Shown here: positions 7,376 through 37,887 of the stretch, piece by piece | Layout of the letters: every line of letters starts with the position of its first letter | How positions within the stretch are numbered: the first letter of the stretch is position 1 | From: Nitrospirota bacterium | GTDB taxonomy: Bacteria; Nitrospirota; Thermodesulfovibrionia; Thermodesulfovibrionales; UBA1546 | Direction of reading: 5' to 3' | Assembly (NCBI GenBank): GCA_009773185.1 | Contig: WPIF01000026.1 | Location: forward strand, 1 to 37,887 | DNA length: 37,887 bases | Position numbers and translations under genes: made by a program | Notes under the pieces: model-generated | The model's input: only the letters and a program-made list of their open reading frames with translations | The model's database searches: none | What the model was told of the DNA's origin: nothing

Positions 7376-7934
7376 GATATCTTTACCGCCTTCGGGCCTT
7401 GCAGAAGATTTTATAAGTGAGATAAGGGATGAACAGGCTGAGGTACAGCTTGTCACCTTTGCCCTTGGGGAACAATACGGCGTTCCCATAAGCCAGATAC
7501 AGGAAATAATAAGGGTTGGGAATATCACAATGGTTCCAAACTCGCCTTCGTATATGGAAGGGGTTATAAACCTGAGAGGAAGAGTGCTGCCTGTTTTGAA
7601 CCTGAGAAAAAGGTTGCGGCTATCGGCAAAGGACACCGGCAAGATGTCGAGAATTATTGTTACAGAGGTTAACAATAAGACAATAGGATTGCTTGTGGAT
7701 TCAGTCTCGCATGTCATCAAGGTGGCATCGGATTCAGTGGAAGCTGCTCCTGAAGAAGTTCTTGAGATTGACACTGATTATATAACAGGCGTGTGCAAGA
7801 TTCAAAATAGCCTTGTAATATTAATTGATCTGGAAAAACTTTTAAAAAGAGAAAAGATTGAGCTTAAAGAGGTCGGGATGGATTTGTCTACGGCCCATGA
7901 ACAACGAGGAGGAAGCGATGGAAAAGAAAATTAA
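7368..7934 (+). CDS. cheW: Chemotaxis coupling protein CheW
   Basis: This 188-aa protein has a single CheW domain (LVTFALGEQYGVPI, GVINLRGRVLPVLNL, ITGVCKI) that bridges CheA P5 to receptors. An upstream in-frame ATG (7326) lies inside cheA. The GTG at 7368 is preferred because AAAGGAGG ends 9 bases before it. An N-terminal extension of about 25 residues precedes the domain. The 3' end overlaps the small two-CW gene by 17 bases. Confidence 0.93.
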   Translation: MSKISLPPSGLAEDFISEIRDEQAEVQLVTFALGEQYGVPISQIQEIIRVGNITMVPNSPSYMEGVINLRGRVLPVLNLRKRLRLSAKDTGKMSRIIVTEVNNKTIGLLVDSVSHVIKVASDSVEAAPEEVLEIDTDYITGVCKIQNSLVILIDLEKLLKREKIELKEVGMDLSTAHEQRGGSDGKEN

Positions 7935-8127
7935 CTGCTGGGAATTTAAAAAATGCGGGAGGGATAAAACAAGCGACTGTCCGGCATATCCGAAAGGCGG
8001 GCGGGTATGTTATTTGGTAGCAGGCACCATGTGCGGAGGAAAAGTGCAGGGCGCGTATGCCCTTAAGATTGATAACTGCAGGGACTGCGATTTTTATAAG
8101 GCAGTGGTCATCGAAAAAAAACTTTGA
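7918..8127 (+). CDS. Small two-CW domain protein (seven cysteines)
   Basis: This 69-aa protein consists almost only of a cysteine-rich module. The order is CW, then Cys after four residues, CPAY, a Cys in RVCYLVAGT, a Cys before GGKVQGA, and a closing CxxC. The same seven-Cys pattern recurs at the C-terminus of the neighbouring receptor and inside the kinase at 13814. Proteins like this are known as two-CW domain proteins; function is unknown, and metal binding or redox sensing is plausible from the cysteines. The ATG is preceded by gaggagga and overlaps cheW, so it is translated as part of the operon. An earlier in-frame ATG at 7858 is rejected because it has no ribosome-binding site. Confidence 0.85.
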   Translation: MEKKINCWEFKKCGRDKTSDCPAYPKGGRVCYLVAGTMCGGKVQGAYALKIDNCRDCDFYKAVVIEKKL

Positions 8128-8193
8128 AAGAAAAGAGACTATGATGTTTAAATGTTTTAACCTCAGTTTTAATCTATGTTTAAGGAGGAAAGC

Positions 8194-10680
8194 GTGAAGA
8201 TAAAAATCAGCACGAAGCTTTTTATTGGTTTAGGGGTTATACTTGCCATTGTAATTGTGATGGCAGGAGGATTTTACTGGTCCATGAAAAATGTGGAAGA
8301 GGCAAAGGCAGAGGTGCTTCGGCTGTCAGAGCTGAACACGTTTTTCTCGGAGAGGGTGGTGGACCATCTTAAATGGATGGACGGGCTTTCTTCGGGCCTC
8401 TTTGTCCAGGGGAAGGAATTCAAGGGAAAACTTGATCCCGCTGAATGTAACCTTGGGAAATGGATGACGTCATTTAAGCCCTATTCAAAGGAGATCGAAG
8501 AGCCTTTTAGGGCATTAGATGCGCCCCACAAAAAACTGCATGAATCGGCAAGCGGAATAATTTCAGAAATCAAGGCCGGACACAAGGACAGGGCCCATGC
8601 AATATTTATATCAGAGACAATTCCTGCAGTTACATCTGTCCAGGAAGGCCTGAATAAGATGAAGGAAATCCTGAAAAAAGACGTGGAGACAAAAGACATA
8701 CAATTGAAGGCTGCCATTAAAAGAGCTAATGCCATTACGTTCGGGCTTGCTGCGTTCGTATTGCTGTTCGGTATTATCGGAGGCACAATTTTTGTGAAAG
8801 GTGTAAGTAACGGAATTACAAGGCCCATCGAAAAGATGATAAATTCAATGAAGAGGATTGCTGAAGGGAACCTTACCGAAGAAATAGTTGTTAAGGGCAG
8901 TGATGAGATAGTGCAGATGTCCGGAGAGTTCAATAAGGTCGTGAAGGGCCTTAAGGATACAATTACACATGCTGTTACATCTGCCCTTAAGGTTTCCCTG
9001 GCTACAAATAATATAGTTTCAAACGCGCAGAAACTTTCCTTATCCTCACAGGAAGAAGCCTCTGCCACAGAAGAGACTACTTCTTCCATGGAGGAGATGG
9101 CAGCATCTATATCACAGGTTGCAAAAAATACAGAGTCGCTTGCAACAAATGTTGATGAAACATCAGCTACAATAAATGAGATGGCTGCCTCGATAGAGCA
9201 GGTAGGAAAAAGCGCAGACAACATGGCAGCTTCGGTTGAAGAGACATCCGCAACAATTGAAGAGATGCTTGCCTCTACCGACCAGACTGCAAAAAATACA
9301 GGCATGATGACCGAGGCAGTAAGCGAGACATCCCTGACTGTTGAAAATCTGCTCTCATCTATCGAGCAGATATCTAAAAATACAGAATCCTTAAAAAATA
9401 TGGTCACGGAGACTTCAAGCACTATTGAAGAAATGACAATGACTGTCAGGGAGGTTGCAGGAAGGATTGACGGCGCCAATAAATTAACCCAGAAGGCCTT
9501 CAGTGAGGCTGAAGACGGTGGAAAGGCCATATACCAGAGCATAGAAAGCCTCCAGAATATCGGCAAGACAACAGAAAAGACCATGGGCATAATACAGAAC
9601 CTGGGCAAACGCTCGGAAGAAATAGGCTCGATTGTTGAAGTTATAGATGAGATTGCAGACCAGACAAACCTTCTGGCGCTTAACGCCGCCATAGAGGCAG
9701 CGCGGGCAGGGGACGCCGGAAGGGGCTTTGCCGTAGTTGCAGAGGAAATACGAAAGCTTGCAGAGCGTTCCATGGAGGCTACAAAAGAGATTGGGGGCGT
9801 TATAAAACAGGTTCAGAGCGAAACTGAAACAGCGATAAAGGCAACAGAAGAAACTTACAGGGAAGGCAAAGGCGGCATTATGCTTGCGGGACAGAGCAGG
9901 GATGCATTCACAGAAATAATAGCCTCGATAAAAGAAAGCTCGGAAGTAACGCATGGAATAGCCAAGTCTGCATCTGAACTGAACAAGGCTATTGAGCAGA
10001 GCATGAAATATGTTGTGGATATGAATGCATCTACTGATGATGTTACAAGCGCTGTAAAAGGGCAGGCAAATGGTGCAGGCAGCATCAGGCTTCTCCTTGA
10101 TAAAATGAACAAGATGGTCCAGGAGGTAAATATAGCAGCCAAAGAACAGGCGATTGGCGGAAAACAGATACGAGAGGTTGTAGAGCGCATGAAGAATATA
10201 GTCCATGAGGTAGGAATTGCCGTTAAAGAACAGGTGAGCGGAACCAAACAAATAGTTCAATCAACTGAGATAATGCATGAAATGGCACAGTCGGTAGCTA
10301 ATGCAACATCGGAACAGAAACTTGGAGGAGAAACGGTTGTGAGAGCTATGGAGGGCATAGGGCATATTGCATCAGAAAATCTTGAGCTGTCGAAGAAAAT
10401 GACCGAGACGTCCGAAGAGACACTTTTTCAGATGGAAAACCTTCAATATGTAATAAGCAACTTCAAGATACATTCAAATGGAAATAAAAAATGCTGGGAT
10501 GTAATGAACTGTCCAACAGGGTCAAGGCTTAAATGCCCTGCATATAATGTTCAGGAAGACCGGTGCTGGCTTATATCGGGGACATGGTGCAAGGGTGCGC
10601 AGCAGGGTGACGCGCGGTCTAAATTGCGTAACTGCATGACCTGTGAGGCATTCAAGGTCATCCAGGGAGTGGAAGTGTAA
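8194..10680 (+). CDS. Methyl-accepting chemotaxis protein with extracytoplasmic CZB-like domain and C-terminal two-CW domain
   Basis: This 828-aa chemoreceptor has TM1 (about residues 10-28), a periplasmic domain, TM2 (about 181-205), HAMP, and a very long signalling coiled coil with the conserved hairpin tip ([18 protein letters not shown]). A seven-Cys two-CW module begins at Cys767. The periplasmic part has the zinc-site pattern of CZB domains: His58 in HLKW, Cys85 in CNLGKW, and His112 and His116 in HKKLH. Both coiled-coil arms contain four tandem 28-residue repeats. GTG at 8194 is chosen over ATG at 8176 because AAGGAGG (8182-8188) sits between them. There is no CheR-binding pentapeptide at the C-terminus. 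It probably senses a redox, metal or oxidant signal. Confidence 0.93.
9076..9450 (+). repeat. 84-bp tandem repeats coding the N-terminal receptor arm
   Basis: Four consecutive 84-bp units (9076, 9160, 9244, 9328) and a partial fifth encode 28-residue repeats of the type [21 protein letters not shown]. Each unit is four heptads, so duplication keeps the coiled-coil register. Confidence 0.7.
10057..10392 (+). repeat. 84-bp tandem repeats coding the C-terminal receptor arm
   Basis: Four 84-bp units starting at 10057, 10141, 10225 and 10309 encode 28-residue repeats that begin K/S-x-Q and contain a variable GG/GT and an M-x-x-x-V core. They match in number and length the repeats of the opposite arm at 9076. 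Confidence 0.65.
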
Positions 10681-13813: not shown

Positions 13814-16657
13814 TCAGAGACTAATTATTACTGATGTCCCTGAACCTTCGGTGCTCTGTATCTCCATACTGCCGTCATGGTCTTCGATTATTTTTTTGCA
13901 TATTGAAAGGCCAAGCCCTGTGCCTTCTTTTCTTGTTGTAAAAAACGGATCCCATATCTTGTCTATTATGCCTTTTCTGATCCCAATGCCATTGTCCTTT
14001 GTTGTTATTACCACCCTGCCTTTTTTCTGCTCAGCAGTTATATCTACGTTCCTGCTCCCTGCATTCAGGGCGTTATCTATAAGGTTCAGAAAAACCTGGG
14101 TCAGTTTATCTGTATCTGCCATGATTGTAACTGAAGGGTTAATTATTAAATTCACGGCTACATCCTCTTTCTTGGCCTTAACATAATGCTTTATCTTTTC
14201 CATAAGGACATTTAAATCCACTTCTCTGATATCCAATTTTGACGGCCTGCTGTACAGAAGAAGTTCCTCAATCAGGTTCTTCAGTCTGTATATCTCCTTA
14301 AGCATTGCCTGCAGAAGGGCACGGTGTTGTTCGGATTTAATTTCCCTCTCTAATATCTGCACTATGGAGGATATGCCAAAAAGCGGATTCCTTATTTCGT
14401 GGGCAACCCCGGCAACAACCTTTCCTATTGCCTCAAGATGCTGTTTCTTCTTTGCTTCTGCCTGAAGTTTCTTTATCTCGGTAAGATCACGGAATACCAC
14501 AACAGTTCCTGCCTGTTTATCATCCGTGCGGCTCAACGGAGAATTGTTGAAACCTACAGGAATGACATCTGTACCGTCTGATATCTCTATCTCCCTGTTG
14601 AAATTAGAATTAATTATGAGAAAATCGGATGCCTGCGGCAAGACGTCTGTAAGTTTTTTACCGATAACATAGTCTTTGATTTTCAATATCCCGAAACCGA
14701 TAGGGTTTAACTTTATGATATGGTTTTCCGAATCAAGAACCATTATTCCCGTGGCCATGTTGGTGAGAACCACCCCTGAAAAATCCCTTTCGGTTAGGAG
14801 ATCATTGTATAGCTGTGCTGTATTAATGGCAGCGGCAGCCTGGCTTGCAAAGAGCCGAATAACAGCCTTTTCAGCATCTGTCATAAAGAAATCTTTTTTC
14901 TTGAAAAGTGTCAGGCAACCGAATATTGAATTTTTCAGCTTCAACGGGACTGAGGCCATGTACAAAAAACCATAGCTTTGGATTAAACCGCTGAGACATT
15001 CAACATCCTGAATTCTGATTGTTTCTAAGGGGCGTTCCTCCTCAATGGATCTTCCGATAAAAGATTCTTCAACGGGAAGAGAATCAGGGATGATAGCTTT
15101 TTCAATATTAGAGACGGTTTCGAGGTGCAATCTTCCGTCTTTTTTTTCCATTAGCCACAGTATTGCGGCGTCCATATTTGCAAAAACCGTAGCAGATGAG
15201 ACAATGGATTGCGTAAGTTTATTCAGGTTCAGGTCCCGAATCGTTTCAACTGATATATCCTGAAGCCTGATAAGGCTGGCTATGTCTTCTTCTTTGCCCT
15301 CAATCAGCCTTTGGTTTTCAATGGCAGATGCAATTTCAGAGCCAAGAATTTCAATGGAATGAAGTGAAGTCTTTGCTATATCTTCTGTTTTGCCGGCTAT
15401 TAAAACTCCTAAAACAGGGAAGACATTACAGTGAAGACACCCGTAGATTTTTTCTTTGCCTGCCACTGCCTGAGGGCTTCTGCAGAGCGTACCGTTTATC
15501 AGCCAGCACCTCTCGTCAGGGTTGTTGAACGCAGGACAGTTTTCGTATGTACAGAGATTGATTTCCCAGCATCTCTTCCTTTGGTGAGAAAGGATAGGAA
15601 TTATAACAACATTGCCAAATGTATCCGGCGCCCCGATATCCTGCGCCTTTTTTATCACAGGCCTTGCTTCCCTTATGGTTTTTATAAAGGGGTGTTCGCT
15701 GGCAAGTGATATTTCAATAGAGCAGACATCATCATCAATGCCTTTTTTGAACTCCTGCAAAAGAAGCCCTGTTTCCTTGTCTATAAGGCATAGGGCCGAA
15801 TATCCATAGCCCATCTCGTCTGTTATGGCATCCAAAAACTGCTCTATAATCTCTTTCAGTGTTAGATCGCCTTTAAATACCTCAGATGAAAGTTCAGCAA
15901 TTGCCCTTAGCTCTTTAGTTCTTTGCCTTACGGCGTTCTCAAGGCCTATATGTGATTTCTCTATGCTGTCTGCCATTTCATTAAAGCGGGAAGCGACCAT
16001 GCCAATCTCGTCGTCCCTCTTTAAGTCTATTCTGTAATTAAGCTTTCCGGTCCTCAGTATCTCGGTTCCCTGATGGAGGGTATCCAGGGGATTCAGAATC
16101 ATCTTTCTTATAACAATGATTAAAAATATTTCACTGATTAAACCTATGATAACGGCAAAAAATATCAGGCGCTTGGCTGTTTCATTAATCTCTGCGTGTG
16201 CTTTTTTAAGTGAGGTCTTTATAACAATCATCCCCCTTGTCTTATCCCCAGAGGAATGACAAGCATGGCACCTGCGCTCATTTTTAAGAGGCTTATAGAA
16301 AAAGAGGGCCTCGTCGGATTTTATATGGGCTTCCTTCCGGGCAGCGAATATTTCTTCAGGCACCGCAATATCAGTGTTAAATGCAAACTGCCTATTTATA
16401 CCTACGACCCCTATTTGCATTTCTTCGGGCTGGTTGAACTCTTGGATATGCTGCGCAACTATCAGAGGATCTTTTTCTATCATTGCAGACGTGAGATGCT
16501 TTGTAAGCACTTCTGCAGTCTGTAAAGATTTCTCCGAATATATGCCGATTATTATGGTTTTTTCCCGTTCGAGTATCAGGTATGTGAGAAGTCCAAAAAA
16601 GAAGATTACGCCGGCCAGGAGTATCCAGAAAGATTTTTCACTAAGACTTTTTTTGAT
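13814..16657 (-). CDS. Sensor histidine kinase with periplasmic CxxCH motif and internal two-CW domain
   Basis: This 947-aa inner-membrane kinase has TM1 (about 15-35), a periplasmic region with CHACH (Cys130, Cys133, His134, a heme-c attachment motif), and TM2 (about 163-183). These are followed by HAMP, a GAF-like region holding a seven-Cys two-CW module, a second GAF, PAS, HisKA (VVAGVAHEIRNPLFG) and HATPase (NLIDNALNAG, DNGIGI, GTGLGLS). The first conventional start, GTG at 16510, would remove TM1. The open frame continues upstream, and AUC at 16657 is proposed because AAGGGG lies 8 bases before it and the reading gives a normal KKSLSEKS-TM1 N-terminus. No response regulator is adjacent except the chemosensory receivers. 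Heme binding is inferred from the motif. Confidence 0.88.
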   Translation of the reverse strand: MKKSLSEKSFWILLAGVIFFFGLLTYLILEREKTIIIGIYSEKSLQTAEVLTKHLTSAMIEKDPLIVAQHIQEFNQPEEMQIGVVGINRQFAFNTDIAVPEEIFAARKEAHIKSDEALFFYKPLKNERRCHACHSSGDKTRGMIVIKTSLKKAHAEINETAKRLIFFAVIIGLISEIFLIIVIRKMILNPLDTLHQGTEILRTGKLNYRIDLKRDDEIGMVASRFNEMADSIEKSHIGLENAVRQRTKELRAIAELSSEVFKGDLTLKEIIEQFLDAITDEMGYGYSALCLIDKETGLLLQEFKKGIDDDVCSIEISLASEHPFIKTIREARPVIKKAQDIGAPDTFGNVVIIPILSHQRKRCWEINLCTYENCPAFNNPDERCWLINGTLCRSPQAVAGKEKIYGCLHCNVFPVLGVLIAGKTEDIAKTSLHSIEILGSEIASAIENQRLIEGKEEDIASLIRLQDISVETIRDLNLNKLTQSIVSSATVFANMDAAILWLMEKKDGRLHLETVSNIEKAIIPDSLPVEESFIGRSIEEERPLETIRIQDVECLSGLIQSYGFLYMASVPLKLKNSIFGCLTLFKKKDFFMTDAEKAVIRLFASQAAAAINTAQLYNDLLTERDFSGVVLTNMATGIMVLDSENHIIKLNPIGFGILKIKDYVIGKKLTDVLPQASDFLIINSNFNREIEISDGTDVIPVGFNNSPLSRTDDKQAGTVVVFRDLTEIKKLQAEAKKKQHLEAIGKVVAGVAHEIRNPLFGISSIVQILEREIKSEQHRALLQAMLKEIYRLKNLIEELLLYSRPSKLDIREVDLNVLMEKIKHYVKAKKEDVAVNLIINPSVTIMADTDKLTQVFLNLIDNALNAGSRNVDITAEQKKGRVVITTKDNGIGIRKGIIDKIWDPFFTTRKEGTGLGLSICKKIIEDHDGSMEIQSTEGSGTSVIISL

Positions 16658-16819: not shown

Positions 16820-17944
16820 ATGTCCAAGGTCTATTTTGCTCCGGCAAGAATAAAAAAATGGAGATATACAGACAGCATGCCAGGCAAGCTCGAAAAGTTG
16901 CTGAATGAGATAAATCTCCTGAGCTTTTTTGAAAAAAATGAATGGACAGCCGTAAAGACACACTTTGGCTCTGAGGGCGCTCACAGGATTGTGAGGCCTA
17001 TATTCTTAAGAAAGGTTGTTGATGCCTTAAAAGGTGTAAGCGCCAAGCCTTTTGTTACAGATACTGTCCGCATAAAAGGGCTTGATTATCTCGAAGTTGC
17101 AAATCAAAACGGGATAAATCATCTTTCCGTTGGAGCGCCCGTTGTTCTGGCTGACGGGCTTTATGGGAATGACAATATAATGGTAAGGGCTGGCGATATC
17201 CTTGGTGAAATTGCAATCGCAAGTGTAATACATGATGTGCCTGCCATGGTTGTGTGTTCACATGTTAAAGGGCATATTCAGGCAGGTTATGGCGGTGCAA
17301 TTAAAAATGTCGCGATGGGAGGGATCAGCTCAAGCCACAGAAAATGCGGTTGGAAATGCGGCAGGGGTGCCTTACATACAATAGGCGAGGGCAAGTTAAT
17401 ATGGGATGAGGCAAAGTGTGAGCTCTGTTATCAATGTGAAGAGATTTGCCCGCTTGAGTGTATAAAATTTGAAAATGAACTTTTTGTCTACAGCGAAGAT
17501 AAATGCTGGAGGTGTGGAAGATGCACAAGGGTCTGTCCGGCAGGCGCGCTTGCAATGCCAGGTGATGACGAGAGGTTTATGCATGCCCTGGCAGAGGCTG
17601 CGAAGGCAGTTATTGGCACATTTCAGCCAGGCAAAATTATGTATATAAATTTTCTTACTGAGATACAGCCCGAGTGCGACTGTATGCCGTCTGCTGATGT
17701 GCCGGTTATGCAGGATCAAGGGATACTTGTCTCCGATGATATTGTTTCAATAGAGCAGGCTACAATCGATATGCTTTCAAATAAAAAACCCCTTCCTCAA
17801 TCTGCCATGGACGAATATCAATCTGAGCCAGACGATATACTTTTTTGCCTTTCCAGAAAGCCCTACAAATTACAGATAGATGCAGCTGAAAGCCTTGGAT
17901 TAGGCAGTAAACAATATAAACTTGTCGAGATACAGGAATTTTAA
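16820..17944 (+). CDS. DUF362 protein with two 4Fe-4S clusters
   Basis: This 374-aa protein has an N-terminal DUF362 domain (about 1-195; KTHFGSEGAHRIVRP, HVKGHIQAGYGGAIKN). A dicluster ferredoxin region follows (CELCYQCEEICPLECI and CWRCGRCTRVCPAGAL, about 205-255), and then a C-terminal tail of about 120 residues. DUF362 proteins of this size are common in anaerobes; their reaction is unknown. The clusters indicate electron transfer in the cytoplasm, as no signal peptide is seen. ATG at 16820 is preferred over GTG at 16814 because agaggtg precedes it by about 5 bases. The gene stands alone; its stop is next to the T-tract of the convergent small RNA. Confidence 0.88.
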   Translation: MSKVYFAPARIKKWRYTDSMPGKLEKLLNEINLLSFFEKNEWTAVKTHFGSEGAHRIVRPIFLRKVVDALKGVSAKPFVTDTVRIKGLDYLEVANQNGINHLSVGAPVVLADGLYGNDNIMVRAGDILGEIAIASVIHDVPAMVVCSHVKGHIQAGYGGAIKNVAMGGISSSHRKCGWKCGRGALHTIGEGKLIWDEAKCELCYQCEEICPLECIKFENELFVYSEDKCWRCGRCTRVCPAGALAMPGDDERFMHALAEAAKAVIGTFQPGKIMYINFLTEIQPECDCMPSADVPVMQDQGILVSDDIVSIEQATIDMLSNKKPLPQSAMDEYQSEPDDILFCLSRKPYKLQIDAAESLGLGSKQYKLVEIQEF

Positions 17945-17980
17945 AAAAAAACACTGCTGTCCGTGGGATGTGGACAGCAG
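17943..17980 (-). terminator. Intrinsic terminator of the small RNA
   Basis: ctgctgtcc and ggacagcag form a perfect 9-bp stem (17980-17972 with 17962-17954 on the minus strand) around a 9-base loop. Three bases and then eight Ts (17950-17943) follow on the minus strand. On the plus strand no T-run follows the hairpin. Confidence 0.8.
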
Positions 17981-18009
17981 CGTAGGGGAGGTAACGAGGC
18001 GCTTAATTG
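17943..18009 (-). ncRNA. Putative anti-Shine-Dalgarno small RNA
   Basis: On the minus strand a consensus promoter (18043-18015) is followed about 25 bases later by a pyrimidine-rich segment with ACCUCCCC (complement of 17985-17992). A strong hairpin and eight Us come next. The predicted RNA is about 65 nt and has no plausible ORF. The CCUCCCC stretch is complementary to Shine-Dalgarno sequences, the seed type used by several known C-rich small RNAs. It is convergent with the DUF362 gene. Promoter, body and terminator are seen; expression and targets are inferred. Confidence 0.6.
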
Positions 18010-18014
18010 TTATA

Positions 18015-18043
18015 TTTATAACAGACCTTATACGCTTTGTCAA
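18015..18043 (-). promoter_or_regulatory. Consensus sigma-70 promoter of the small RNA
   Basis: On the minus strand TTGACA (18043-18038), a 17-bp spacer and TATAAA (18020-18015) give an almost perfect promoter facing away from any ORF. Start of transcription is expected near 18008. Confidence 0.7.
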
Positions 18044-18306
18044 GAAAAATATTTAGATTATATATAAATTATAGCTTTAGGGAAAATACTTTCCTGCCTA
18101 TTATGCTGCCTATGCCAGGGTGTTGTGTTCATATTGAGCCTATTTACTATATTTTACATAATATATCTTATCGGACATACCGTATAAACAAGCATTGTCA
18201 GTAAGTTGTTATCAACCTCTCTTCTGTCTTATGCGGACTTATGGCAGGACTTGCTTTTAGCGGTTCTGAACGACTTTTAGGCAGATTAAAAAATATTTAA
18301 AATCAC
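18044..18306. other. AT-rich spacer downstream of mtaB, no gene seen
   Basis: These 263 bases lie between the mtaB stop and the small-RNA promoter. I see no ORF with a ribosome-binding site, no tRNA fold and no clear terminator for the mtaB transcript. Confidence 0.5.
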
Positions 18307-19554
18307 TCAGTTATGTGATATGAATGGGATGCCGACAAGCTGCCCTTCTTGTAACCCCTCTATCTGCACACAAACAAGGGATCCGCGGGAGTAAGCTTTT
18401 GATGGTATCAGAATTTTAAGGTAATTACCGGATGTCCCATAACATGCGCCATCACTGCGGCTTTCTTCAATAAGGACATCAAGGGTTTTGCCTGTCTGCT
18501 TAGTCATATACTCGATTTTTTTTCTCTCATTAAGAGCCTCCAGGGCGCGGGCCCGTTTCTTCTTTACTGGAAGTGGCGTATTATCATGCATTTTTAAGGC
18601 CTTGGTATTTGTCCTGGGTGAAAAAGGGAAGATATGCATAAACGTTATTGGAAGGGATTCAAGCAGATTATATGTGTTCTGAAACTCCGGCTCGCCTTCT
18701 CCCGGAAAGCCAACAATTATGTCCGTACCTACTGCAATATTCGGAATTCTTCTGCAAATGTCCTCGATTTTAAAGGAAAATTGCTGAGAACTATATAGCC
18801 TGTTCATTGATTTCAATATATTATCATCTCCGCTCTGGAGAGGAATATGCAAGTGATTACACAGCCGTTTGTCAGTAAATATCTCAATAAGTTCATCATC
18901 AACCTCCCGCACTTCTAAAGAACTAAGGCGAATTCTGTTTATTTTTGTTTTTTTAAGAAGAGTTACAATTAAGTTTGAAAGCGTTACTTTAGGTTTTAAG
19001 TCGTGGCCGTAAGTTCCCAAATGAATGCCTGTTAGCACTATTTCCCTATATCCAAATTCTACTGCTTTATTGACACGCTCCACAACAACCTCAGCATCTT
19101 CACTTCTTGAAGTGCCTCTGGCCTTTTGTATAGCACAGTAGCTGCAGGAATAATTGCAGCCATCCTGTATCTTGATGAAGAGCCTGCTTCTTGTCTGCGC
19201 CGGAAAATATGAAGAACTGTCTATGCGGCAGCCTGTGAGCTTATATACAATATCCAGCTTATTGTTGTTAACAATAATATCTTCTACCCCTTCCATGGCG
19301 CTAACGCTTTCCCTGTTAAGTTCAGAATAACACCCGGTTACAAAGACGCGCGCCCCTGCCCTGTGAGCCCTTCTTATTAGCTGTCTTGACTGGTAATCGC
19401 TTTTTGATGTTACTGTGCAGGTGTTTATAATGCACAGTTCGGGCTTTTCTGTGAGCTCGACAATTTTATGGCCGAAATTCTTCAGCGCCCCTTCAATTGA
19501 AGAGCTTTCAGCCTGGTTTACCTTACATCCCAGCGTTAAAACAGAAATTCTCAT
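18307..19554 (-). CDS. mtaB: tRNA t6A37 methylthiotransferase MtaB
   Basis: This 415-aa radical-SAM enzyme converts t6A to ms2t6A at position 37 of ANN-decoding tRNAs. The N-terminal UPF0004 domain has three cluster cysteines (LGCKVNQ, NTCTVTS, TGCYSE). The radical-SAM core has CNYSCSYC near residue 140, and the C-terminal part fits a TRAM domain. The LGCKVNQAES signature separates it from MiaB (FGCQMN) and RimO. Its ATG overlaps the miaB stop by one base (TAATG), so translation is coupled. Confidence 0.92.
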   Translation of the reverse strand: MRISVLTLGCKVNQAESSSIEGALKNFGHKIVELTEKPELCIINTCTVTSKSDYQSRQLIRRAHRAGARVFVTGCYSELNRESVSAMEGVEDIIVNNNKLDIVYKLTGCRIDSSSYFPAQTRSRLFIKIQDGCNYSCSYCAIQKARGTSRSEDAEVVVERVNKAVEFGYREIVLTGIHLGTYGHDLKPKVTLSNLIVTLLKKTKINRIRLSSLEVREVDDELIEIFTDKRLCNHLHIPLQSGDDNILKSMNRLYSSQQFSFKIEDICRRIPNIAVGTDIIVGFPGEGEPEFQNTYNLLESLPITFMHIFPFSPRTNTKALKMHDNTPLPVKKKRARALEALNERKKIEYMTKQTGKTLDVLIEESRSDGACYGTSGNYLKILIPSKAYSRGSLVCVQIEGLQEGQLVGIPFISHN

Positions 19555-33391: not shown

Positions 33392-35821
33392 TCATCTCAG
33401 ATTATAAACCGCATTATCCTTACCAAAATTAATAATCAATGGCGTCTGTTGATGCCCAATCTTTTTTGATATCTCTGTTGTTGAAGCCTTTGAGTATTCT
33501 CCGAGTTCAGCTAAGCTTACGGCATTGTCTTTGTTTTTATCTGCATTCCTGTTATTGTTCAATCCGTCAAGCAAGGTATAAGTGAAAAGCCCGTTCCCTT
33601 GGTATCCGTCCATTGCAGCTTCTTTTGAGTTTGCTGAGGCATATATGTGCAGCCCCATTTTCTTTGCAAGCACTGACATTCTTGCATCATATAAGCCGCT
33701 TACAATGTAATCCACGCCTCCTGCATGGCATGTGTCGAATATAAATAACTGGGAAAGGGATTTTATCTTCTTGGACATCTCCACAATTTCGTTTGAGCTT
33801 ATGAGGTTATTGTCATTTACCTTCCCGTCATAGTCAGCTGTGAGCATGTAGTATTGGTTCTGAAGTAAAACTCCGTGACCTGCAGCAAAGAGTATGAAGC
33901 TGTCTGTTGGTTTTATCTTTTGTGAGAGTTCATTTATTTTAGTGGTTATCCTTGCCTTTGTCGCATTGTTGTCTGTAATAATTTCGTAGTGGATATTCTG
34001 GAGTTTATATAATGTCTCTGCCTGTTTTATTATTCTTTCTTCGATGTCTTTTGAATCTTTTACTGCATATTTAAGGTTTATTGTACTGTCCTTGTATTGG
34101 TCTATCCCTATTGAGAGGATGTAGAGATGCGGTTCTTCCTGCTTTATTGTTGATGTGAATTTGGCTGTCTGCACATACCCTTGGACTGTGTTGTCTTTAT
34201 TGAAGGCTGTTATGCTTATCTCGTTTTCCCCTGATACTGCATCTATTTCTTTACAGTCATTAAAGACTTCTCCTTTTGATTTGGTTGTGGTTGTACCTGT
34301 CTCAATGCCTTTTTCTTTTATCTTTACGCTTCTCATGTCTTCATATATTGTTTTGCTGTTTAAGGCGATTAATTCGGTTTTGTCTGATGTTGTTTTTGCA
34401 ATGTCTTTGTAGTATCCATCTGATTCTATTAGCTTTCCGTTATGGAAAAGCCTTACTTCTCCAATTCCTCCTCCTGTGCTTTTTACGTTGTAGCAAACCT
34501 TTGTTTTGGGAGATGATGGGGTTGATGCTATAGGGCTTATCTCTACAACAGGCGGAGGGTTTTTGATTGCATCTTTCATTGTTATAGTTATTAAATCCTT
34601 TATGTCATCTCCTCTCAGCTTTGCTGTAACTATATCGGGACGGTAGAAGACGTCATAGAAGCTATCAACACTGTAGGAAGTCGAGGAGTTGTAGTAGCCT
34701 TCGCTTGTAATGGTTAACCATTCGCCATCCTCAAATTCAACCATCATGGCAAGCTCGGCAGCGGTAACTACATCCCAAAGTCTTATTGATGCATCGCCGG
34801 CAGAAATCACATATCTGCCATTAGGGGAAAAATCTACAGATAACACGCCTGGCGGAGTCTCCCAATTTGTAATAGTATATCCCTCCATATGTCCTTTGAA
34901 TGTTCTTATCTCTTTGCCTGTTGATACATCCCAGAGTTTTAATGTTGCATCTCCGCTTCCTGATATGACATATTTACCATCGGGCGAGAAAGCGGCAGAA
35001 CTAATCCACTTTGAATGTCCGCTAAATGTTCTTACCTCTTTACCGGTGGTAACACTCCATAACTTTAATGTGTTATCTCCAGCCACACCTCCGGAAAGGA
35101 TAAAATTACCGTCCGGAGAAAAAACAACGGTGTTTGCAGGACTCCCGAATACTTTAAGCTCCTTTCCCGTTGCCACCTCCCAAAGTCTGATTGTCTTATC
35201 CCAGCTCCCTGAAATTGCATAACTTCCATCTGGAGAAAAATCTACAAATACCGGCATAGCTCCGAAACCTGAATGACCTTTAAATGTCCTTATTTCCTTG
35301 CCGCTATCAGTATCCCAGAGCTTTATGGTCTTATCATAGCTACCGGAAAGGATATAGCGACCATCAGGAGAAAAAGCCGTGGAACTAACAATAAACGAAT
35401 GCCCTTTAAATGTTCTTATCCTGTTCCCTGTGGACAAATCAAAAAGATTAAAGGCATATTTCGAAAATCCCGCTAAGGAAAAGCTGTCATCTCGCAGCAA
35501 GGCAAATCTTCCATCTCGTGATATGGCTGGCAGGCACCTATGAGCTCCTGAATTTATACTTGCAGGTTCTCCCAATTTTAGCATTCTTTTACCACTCAGA
35601 TCCCATAAGGTCGCGGTTCCATTCACACTTCCTGACAGGGCATATTGGCCCTCGGGCGAAAAGACAGCAGAAGTAACAACATAAGCCGGCTGATTAAATT
35701 CCATCGCTATCCCTGCTACGGACAAATTAATCTTTGGGGTTGCTGTTGCGCACGAGGCAAGAAATAGGATTGAAAGAACAAACAGAATTCTCAGCAGGGT
35801 TATTTGTTTGAACATTTTCAT
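33392..35821 (-). CDS. Lipoprotein with seven-bladed WD40 propeller and caspase-like peptidase domain
   Basis: This 809-aa protein has a lipoprotein signal (FLASC, Cys24). Seven WD40 blades (about 45-375; WD-type ends such as TIKLWDT, TIRLWEV, TLKLWSV) come next, then a linker, then a C-terminal caspase (C14) domain. The catalytic pair is His649 in AAGHGV and Cys698 in FDTCHAGG. After the p20-like part a 12-residue loop DKNKDNAVSLAE fits an EF-hand calcium site. It would be anchored outside the cytoplasm, unusual for a caspase homologue. ATG 35821 is set by GGAGGAG upstream; an earlier TTG overlaps that site. It lies 27 bases after the nucleotidyltransferase gene. Confidence 0.9.
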   Translation of the reverse strand: MKMFKQITLLRILFVLSILFLASCATATPKINLSVAGIAMEFNQPAYVVTSAVFSPEGQYALSGSVNGTATLWDLSGKRMLKLGEPASINSGAHRCLPAISRDGRFALLRDDSFSLAGFSKYAFNLFDLSTGNRIRTFKGHSFIVSSTAFSPDGRYILSGSYDKTIKLWDTDSGKEIRTFKGHSGFGAMPVFVDFSPDGSYAISGSWDKTIRLWEVATGKELKVFGSPANTVVFSPDGNFILSGGVAGDNTLKLWSVTTGKEVRTFSGHSKWISSAAFSPDGKYVISGSGDATLKLWDVSTGKEIRTFKGHMEGYTITNWETPPGVLSVDFSPNGRYVISAGDASIRLWDVVTAAELAMMVEFEDGEWLTITSEGYYNSSTSYSVDSFYDVFYRPDIVTAKLRGDDIKDLITITMKDAIKNPPPVVEISPIASTPSSPKTKVCYNVKSTGGGIGEVRLFHNGKLIESDGYYKDIAKTTSDKTELIALNSKTIYEDMRSVKIKEKGIETGTTTTKSKGEVFNDCKEIDAVSGENEISITAFNKDNTVQGYVQTAKFTSTIKQEEPHLYILSIGIDQYKDSTINLKYAVKDSKDIEERIIKQAETLYKLQNIHYEIITDNNATKARITTKINELSQKIKPTDSFILFAAGHGVLLQNQYYMLTADYDGKVNDNNLISSNEIVEMSKKIKSLSQLFIFDTCHAGGVDYIVSGLYDARMSVLAKKMGLHIYASANSKEAAMDGYQGNGLFTYTLLDGLNNNRNADKNKDNAVSLAELGEYSKASTTEISKKIGHQQTPLIINFGKDNAVYNLR

Positions 35822-35848
35822 CGCGCTCTCCTCCAATTCAGAGAAGCC

Positions 35849-36599: not shown

Positions 36600-37887
36600 C
36601 TACCTTAAACTATAAACCGCATTATCTTTTCCGAAGTTTATTATCAACGGCGTCTGGCTATGACCGATTTTTTTTGATATTTCTGTTGTTGTCTGTTTTG
36701 TGTATTCTCCGAGTTCAACAAGGCTGATTTTGCTGTCTTTATTCTTGTCTGCCTCTTTTTTGTTATTAAGTCCGTCAAGAAGCGTGTATGTGAAAAGTCC
36801 GTTTCCATTATATCCGTCCATTGCTGCCTCTTTTGAGTTTGCAGATGCATAGATGTGAAGCCCCATCTTTTTGGCAAGCACTGACATCCTTGCATCATAA
36901 AGCCCGCTTACTATGTAGTCAACCCCTCCCGCATGACAGGTATCGAAGATAAAAAGCTGTGAGAGTGATTTTATTTTCTTTGACATCTCAACTATCTCGT
37001 TTGAGCTGATCATTGTACCTTTATTTACTTTTCCGTCATATTCATGTGTAAGCATGTAGTACTGGTTCTGTAATAGCACTCCATGCGCTGCTACAAAAAG
37101 GACAAAGCTGTCTGTTGGTTTGATTATCTTTGAAAGCTCGTTTATCTTATTTGTTATGTTTGCCTTGTTTGCTTCTGTGTTGGTTATGAGCTGATAGTGT
37201 ATGTTGTGGGGTTTATATAATGTCTCTGCCTGTTTAAGAATCTTATCTTCTATGTCTTTTGAGTCTTTTACTGCATATTTGAGGTTGATTGTACTGTCCT
37301 TGTATTGGTCTATCCCTATTGAAAGGATGTAAAGATGGGGTTCTTCCTGTTTTATTGTTGAGTTGAATTTGGCTGTCTGCACATACCCTTGGACTGTGTT
37401 GTCTTTATTGAAGGCTGTTATGCTTATCTCGTTTTCACCTGAGACTGCGCCTATCTCCTTACAGTCATTGAAAGATTCACCTTTTGATTTGGTTGTTATC
37501 TGACTTATCTCAGCCTTTTCTTTTATCTTTACACTTCTCATGTCGTCATATATTGTATTGCTGTTTAAGGCAATCAATCCGGTTTTATCAGATGTTGTCT
37601 TTGCCATATCTTTGTAGTATCCGTCTGATTCTATGAGTTTGCCGTTATGGAACAGCCTTATCTCTCCAATCCCTCCTCCTGTGCTTTTTACGTTGTAGCA
37701 AACCTTTGTTTTGGGAGATGATGGGGTTGATGCTATAGGGCTTATCTCAATAACAGGCGGAGGGCTTTTTATAGCGTCTTTCATTGTAATAGTTATTAAA
37801 TCCTTTATGTCATCTCCTCTCAGCTTTGCTGTAACTATATCGGGACGGTAGAAGACGTCATAGAAGCTATCAACACTGTAGGAAGTC
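36600..37887 (-). CDS. Second caspase-like protein, 5' end beyond the window
   Basis: The visible 428 C-terminal residues are paralogous to the protein at 33392. They begin within the segment after the WD40 propeller (SYSVDSFYDVFYRPD). The frame is open to the window edge, so the ATG at 37784 is internal. The caspase domain has Cys in FDTCHAGG and His in VAAHGV, where the usual Gly before His is Ala. An EF-hand-like loop DKNKDSKISLVE is kept. A propeller and lipoprotein signal are expected upstream but not seen. It ends 65 bases before the small-protein gene. Confidence 0.88.
   Translation of the reverse strand, partial: TSYSVDSFYDVFYRPDIVTAKLRGDDIKDLITITMKDAIKSPPPVIEISPIASTPSSPKTKVCYNVKSTGGGIGEIRLFHNGKLIESDGYYKDMAKTTSDKTGLIALNSNTIYDDMRSVKIKEKAEISQITTKSKGESFNDCKEIGAVSGENEISITAFNKDNTVQGYVQTAKFNSTIKQEEPHLYILSIGIDQYKDSTINLKYAVKDSKDIEDKILKQAETLYKPHNIHYQLITNTEANKANITNKINELSKIIKPTDSFVLFVAAHGVLLQNQYYMLTHEYDGKVNKGTMISSNEIVEMSKKIKSLSQLFIFDTCHAGGVDYIVSGLYDARMSVLAKKMGLHIYASANSKEAAMDGYNGNGLFTYTLLDGLNNKKEADKNKDSKISLVELGEYTKQTTTEISKKIGHSQTPLIINFGKDNAVYSLR
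37250..37887. repeat. Near-identical duplicate of 34042-34682
   Basis: The linker and early caspase-domain coding DNA of the two caspase genes matches closely over about 640 bases, with one 3-base indel. The final 99 bases (37789-37887 against 34584-34682) are identical by eye. The 3' ends of the same genes are much more divergent. Confidence 0.8.

Follow-up and report, generated by a model that had tools for sequence, protein, structure and literature searches.

A deeply conserved candidate small RNA with an anti-Shine-Dalgarno 5' block in the order Thermodesulfovibrionales

Small RNAs (sRNAs) on record for Nitrospirota are few; a census of 2022 counted three for the phylum (PMC9029176). The closest described systems to the RNA predicted here come from other groups. 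The alpha-r14/NfeR1 sRNAs of rhizobia act in trans and carry an ultraconserved, unpaired, C-rich anti-Shine-Dalgarno (anti-SD) motif on stems differing in sequence; NfeR1 is 123 nt long, has three hairpins, each with CCUCCUCCC, and is Hfq-independent (PMC10746234, PMC3927594). In Firmicutes, the Fur-controlled sRNAs of the IsrR, FsrA, and RsaE/RoxS type pair with Shine-Dalgarno (SD) sequences through single-stranded C-rich regions; IsrR has several such regions, a poorly conserved terminator sequence, and no dependence on Hfq (PMC9410917). Origin from 3' UTRs is represented by CpxQ, derived from the cpxP 3' UTR (PMC4817254), and by CcsR1-4 of Rhodobacter, multicopy sRNAs including 3'-UTR-derived members that are processed as a tandem array from one mRNA (3' UTR of ccaF1/RSP_6037; PMC8625941).

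The predicted RNA was found in the window, i.e. the whole analysed stretch of 37,887 nucleotides from a Nitrospirota genome. It resembles alpha-r14/NfeR1 in its unpaired C-rich motif and variable stem, but is ~67 nt long, has a single ACCUCCCC site accompanied by GCGCCUCGUU, and occurs with Hfq; with one hairpin and ACCUCCCC only, it falls outside that family. The terminator sequence is poorly conserved as in IsrR, and no sequence relation to IsrR, FsrA, RsaE, or RoxS was detected (no Rfam match). The RNA would thus act in the manner of the alpha-r14/NfeR1 and IsrR/FsrA types, yet it stands outside those families because of its single short motif, its different structure, and the lack of an Rfam match. 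Two genomes also have the seed behind Spy/ZraP/CpxP-like genes, at a total of three 3'-UTR loci, which recalls CpxQ; however, the source copy is free-standing, with a promoter of its own ~300 nt beyond mtaB, such 3'-UTR copies are rare, and the two seeds are unrelated as far as known. In contrast to the CcsR array, the loci are single free-standing genes with occasional unrelated 3'-UTR carriers.

The RNA lies between mtaB (minus strand, end at 18307) and a DUF362/4Fe-4S gene (plus strand, end at 17944). It contains no open reading frame and no ATG, and insertions and deletions occur in the hairpin across the alignment, in agreement with the earlier note, which had seen no coding explanation. 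The same note had described TTGACA-17-TATAAA, a C-rich segment, and a final hairpin followed by a U run on the minus strand. All of these were confirmed, except that the stem is 12 bp rather than 9 bp long and the run comprises eight to nine U. The coordinates are given in Table 1.

Table 1. Features of the predicted sRNA locus in the window.
Feature	Position	Strand	Basis or detail
Predicted sRNA, ~67 nt	17943..18010	-	Start placed by promoter spacing; covariance model R1 match 17944-18010
AT-rich conserved element CTAAAGCTATAATTTATA	18063..18080	-	Upstream of -35; position-specific conservation, 75 non-redundant promoters
Sigma70-type promoter, TTGACA + 17-nt spacer + extended -10 TGTTATAAA	18015..18043	-	Sequence and 75 non-redundant promoters
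-35 TTGACA	18043-18038	-	
TG of extended -10	18023-18022	-	One base upstream of -10
-10 TATAAA	18020-18015	-	
Ultraconserved 5' block AAGCGCCUCGUUACCUCCCC, predicted single-stranded	17985..18004	-	Alignment A1, 73 sequences
Anti-SD core ACCUCCCC	17992-17985	-	Inside 5' block
Intrinsic terminator: 12-bp stem, 9-nt loop, nine U	17943..17983	-	Fold and pair covariation
Stem arms	17983-17972 with 17962-17951	-	Loop ACAUCCCAC
U run (U8-9)	17951-17943	-	

Two other groups of genes in the window were recorded. A cysteine motif domain (NCWEFKKCGR...C...CDFY) is present in three proteins of a chemotaxis/sensor cluster (7858-8127, the end of 8176-10680, and inside 13814-16510); in relatives (L205, L210, L252) the motif also occurs in free-standing proteins, whose ribosome-binding sites show complementarity to the RNA. 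The genes at 33392-35836 and 36600-37784 (minus strand) have caspase-like C-terminal halves that are nearly alike, and one of the two has WD40-type repeats. A nucleotidyltransferase-like gene lies between them; the pair looks like a partial duplication.

A BLAST search with 151 bp recovered the locus from the majority of 60 relatives, the identity falling from 98% within the genus to ~72% in other families, and reading of these loci showed that promoter, block, and hairpin travel together. A search of ~85,000 species genomes with an exact pattern of 19 bases yielded 64 stretches; 63 of them represent this RNA and come from Nitrospirota or uncultured records. The exact match in Opitutaceae (L079) has neither promoter nor hairpin and was rejected as chance. 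The alignment omits it, together with a stretch truncated by the end of its contig and another containing undetermined bases. A covariance model built from the 73-sequence alignment had hits in 100 of the 396 genomes of Nitrospirota, with E values between 5e-20 and 0.01. All matches but one belong to Thermodesulfovibrionales, the source's own order, where 11 of the 13 families seen are represented; the remaining one is from the same class. The exact pattern favours an intact seed and so biases its own matches; loci recovered by BLAST or by the model are free of this bias, and they have the same block with few changes. The earlier note had made its proposal depend on whether relatives share promoter, seed, and hairpin; by both BLAST and covariance model, all three are conserved over the order. 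None of the 4227 families of Rfam 15 reached the gathering threshold (best, DUF3800-I, 19.7 bits vs. 44.2), and assignment to a known RNA family was rejected, the weak DUF3800-I and PyrR scores being due to chance. The predicted RNA is a deeply conserved, previously uncatalogued sRNA family of a kind already known. Two named Thermodesulfovibrio MAGs contain two free-standing copies each, on different contigs (L076 and L116; L083 and L107).

The -35 hexamer TTGACA was found in all 75 non-redundant promoters and the TG of the extended -10 in 89-91% of them; the sole -35 exception, TTGACT in L045, lies outside this set. The upstream element has the near-palindromic family consensus CTAAAnTTnnAATTWWTA, fixed at -37 to -20 from TTGACA, and is possibly an activator or UP-type site. 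The promoter looks strong. A simple scan that accepted only -10 hexamers with a final T and loops of 3-8 nt missed both promoter and terminator, because the -10 ends in A (TATAAA) and the loop exceeds that range; on that scan alone the features were not above chance. Their conservation, observed by BLAST across the order and by the covariance model, shows that they beat chance.

The RNA folds with -21.5 kcal/mol (z = -6.0 vs. 200 shuffles), the 5' part being left essentially open. Double changes were found in 8 of the 11 modelled terminator pairs, and double-change cells numbered 52 compared to 19.9 in shuffles, with none of 500 shuffles as high; the stem is conserved through compensatory changes. 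The 5' block behaves differently. Its 20 nt are nearly invariant (alignment A1, n = 73) and essentially unstructured, with a local fold of only -0.6 kcal/mol. A small 5' hairpin AGCG-CCU-CGUU was considered and is not claimed: 97.6% of cells pair, but the energy is that of the local fold just given and a single double change was seen. In family f2 (including genus g43, genome G180), GCGCCUCGUU is directly joined to CCUCCCC with loss of AC, and the terminator stem is unrelated; the spacing between these two halves tolerates insertions and deletions. Since the block is kept in f2 despite the unrelated terminator, it is the block rather than the hairpin sequence that forms the functional core. 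The anti-SD core is the reverse complement of an SD-type sequence, and family f10 has a lineage-specific C-to-U change in it (GUUAUCUCCCC), with which G-U pairing would remain possible. The RNA thus has the conserved, unpaired C-rich motif complementary to SD that marks anti-SD sRNAs, and a block kept by sequence next to a stem kept by compensatory change is the pattern expected of a seed.

Hfq is encoded in the source genome (G000:C19:61011-61196), and the RNA ends in a U-rich tail of nine U; such tails are the usual docking site of Hfq. Hfq (PF17209) was found in 45 of 61 relatives. The presence of RNA and Hfq agreed in 53 of these 61, 41 having both and 12 neither (2x2 table 41/4/4/12; Fisher p 1.4e-6, phylogeny ignored). 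Both are missing in two separate lineages, family f9 and the genera g2 (except one genome, which has Hfq) and g4. In the phylum-wide sets, 91 of the 99 RNA-bearing genomes of the order encode Hfq and in eight it was not detected; a further 15 genomes of the order have Hfq with no RNA detected. This co-occurrence suggests, without proving, that the predicted RNA depends on Hfq.

Given these data, the preferred reading, to which we assign a probability of roughly 70%, is a stand-alone trans-acting sRNA of ~67 nt, associated with Hfq, which would mask SD sites with its C-rich 5' seed and repress translation. A short RNA would be made from its own strong promoter, probably aided by a factor at the upstream element, and would expose the C-rich block while the terminator hairpin and U tail serve for Hfq docking. 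The ACCUCCCC core would pair with SD sequences of the GGGGAGGU type, the invariant GCGCCUCGUU beside it may extend or steady the pairing, and ribosomes would be unable to start on target mRNAs with a covered SD site. As the invariance over 20 nt is longer than seed pairing needs, the GCGCCUCGUU part may bind a protein or RNA.

The source genome contains GTTACCTCC 16 times, several being the complement of the ribosome-binding site GGAGGTAACnATG, and has ribosome-binding sites with at least 9 complementary bases, e.g., GGGAGGTAACGTATG of a DsrH-family gene. In 21 RNA-bearing genomes, ~140 sites GGGAGGTAA(1-9)ATG were counted, many followed by redox or sulfur genes (DsrH, DsrE, DsrO-like ferredoxin, TusA, NapC-like cytochrome). 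No excess of complementary ribosome-binding sites was detected: GGGAGGTAA(1-9)ATG makes up about one-third of GGGAGGTNA sites in RNA-bearing genomes and is not less frequent in genomes without the RNA, and the preference for TAA in RNA-bearing genomes is not above that in genomes without it. Permuted seeds keeping CCUCC paired about as well with 639 ribosome-binding regions, the mean energy being as low in 11 of 60. Clustering of the proteins behind 110 hits gave only small clusters (PorD-like, cytochrome-like, DsrE, DsrO-like, YeiH-like), some attributable to coding constraint or found also in genomes without the RNA, and conserved targets were rejected on this ground. Pairing with GGUAACGGAGGCGC, presumably a 23S rRNA hairpin motif, was also discarded, as a search of four relatives, including three single-contig ones, did not yield the motif and the source-genome hits lie outside recognisable rRNA. 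Since almost any C-rich RNA could plausibly pair with SD sites, and complementary sites showed no excess over controls, a specific target is not claimed. The earlier proposal of a C-rich sRNA that pairs with ribosome-binding sites is therefore supported in its first part, by anatomy and conservation; the pairing itself may occur, its complementarity being no better than that of a generic anti-SD.

The missing target enrichment would also fit a 5' block that binds a protein, so that the RNA titrates this protein as CsrB or 6S RNA does, instead of pairing with mRNA; the nearly invariant 20 nt, more than a pairing seed requires, and the insertions and deletions tolerated between GCGCCUCGUU and CCUCCCC point the same way. 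We consider this unlikely: the RNA lacks GGA-in-loop repeats of the CsrB/RsmZ type, a 6S-like bubble, and an Rfam match, and the block is essentially unstructured with an exact anti-SD core, in which the C-to-U change preserves G-U pairing.

A general mimic of the 16S rRNA 3' tail, loading or sequestering SD-bearing mRNAs broadly with no defined targets, would account for the generic nature of the pairing with ribosome-binding sites. Moreover, the core includes ACCUCC, which we take to be the anti-SD of that tail. Such a role seems quite improbable, as conservation reaches GCGCCUCGUU, outside the 16S tail, and a global repressor would be costly unless under tight regulation.

At most loci the RNA is convergent with the DUF362/ferredoxin gene, usually 50-70 nt from the gene end; roughly one in four free-standing loci is flanked by other genes, and only a few have mtaB next to the RNA. 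As adjacency to both genes varies among loci, the RNA is a free-standing gene and a by-product of neither. With its promoter and intrinsic terminator, absence of an open reading frame, and conservation independent of neighbours, it has the traits of an intergenic gene for a trans-acting sRNA. At the source locus the RNA sits 3' to both mtaB and DUF362 and might be nothing more than a terminator, serving the mtaB-miaB transcript alone or, as a bidirectional element, the DUF362 gene as well; this is very improbable given the complete conserved promoter between mtaB and the hairpin, the variable neighbours, the better conservation of the block upstream of the hairpin than of the hairpin, and the lack of a T run after the plus-strand hairpin. 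Antisense regulation of the DUF362/ferredoxin gene, which the position of the RNA end near its stop codon on the opposite strand in most loci could suggest, is likewise very improbable, since the RNA stops at that codon with no overlap of the coding region and about a quarter of loci have other neighbours.

Besides the free-standing sRNA genes, six genomes gave extra weak model matches without a promoter, in which the seed lies just past the stop codon of a protein gene (e.g., CCUCUUGUUACCUCCCC, CCUCGUUACCUCC) and is followed by a different terminator; a seventh (G289) gave one weak, shorter match. The protein genes concerned encode Spy/ZraP-like periplasmic proteins (with a borderline PF13801 match; L155, L156, L163), a small membrane protein that recurs across three genomes of a single genus, and a protein resembling nucleotidyltransferases. 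These copies, rare in a pattern scan of 111 genomes, look like 3'-UTR-derived sRNAs sharing the seed. For the small membrane protein, each genome has two to three gene copies that are almost identical (L149-L151, L152-L154, L159, L160; genomes G328, G240, G380). Every copy lies at or near a contig end, the downstream flanks differ, and the gene is probably a repeated or mobile unit. One may speculate, with considerable doubt, that one ultraconserved anti-SD seed underlies a post-transcriptional regulon common to the whole order, in which the free-standing RNA and the 3'-UTR copies on envelope-stress genes (Spy/ZraP-like and others) would all act via Hfq and direct several signals to the same messages. 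The recurrence of the seed in 3' UTRs would clearly illustrate seed-sharing evolution.

The strict conservation across the order, together with the joint absence of RNA and Hfq in two lineages, makes the predicted RNA a strong candidate for a core regulator, and it offers a handle on the role of Hfq in Nitrospirota.
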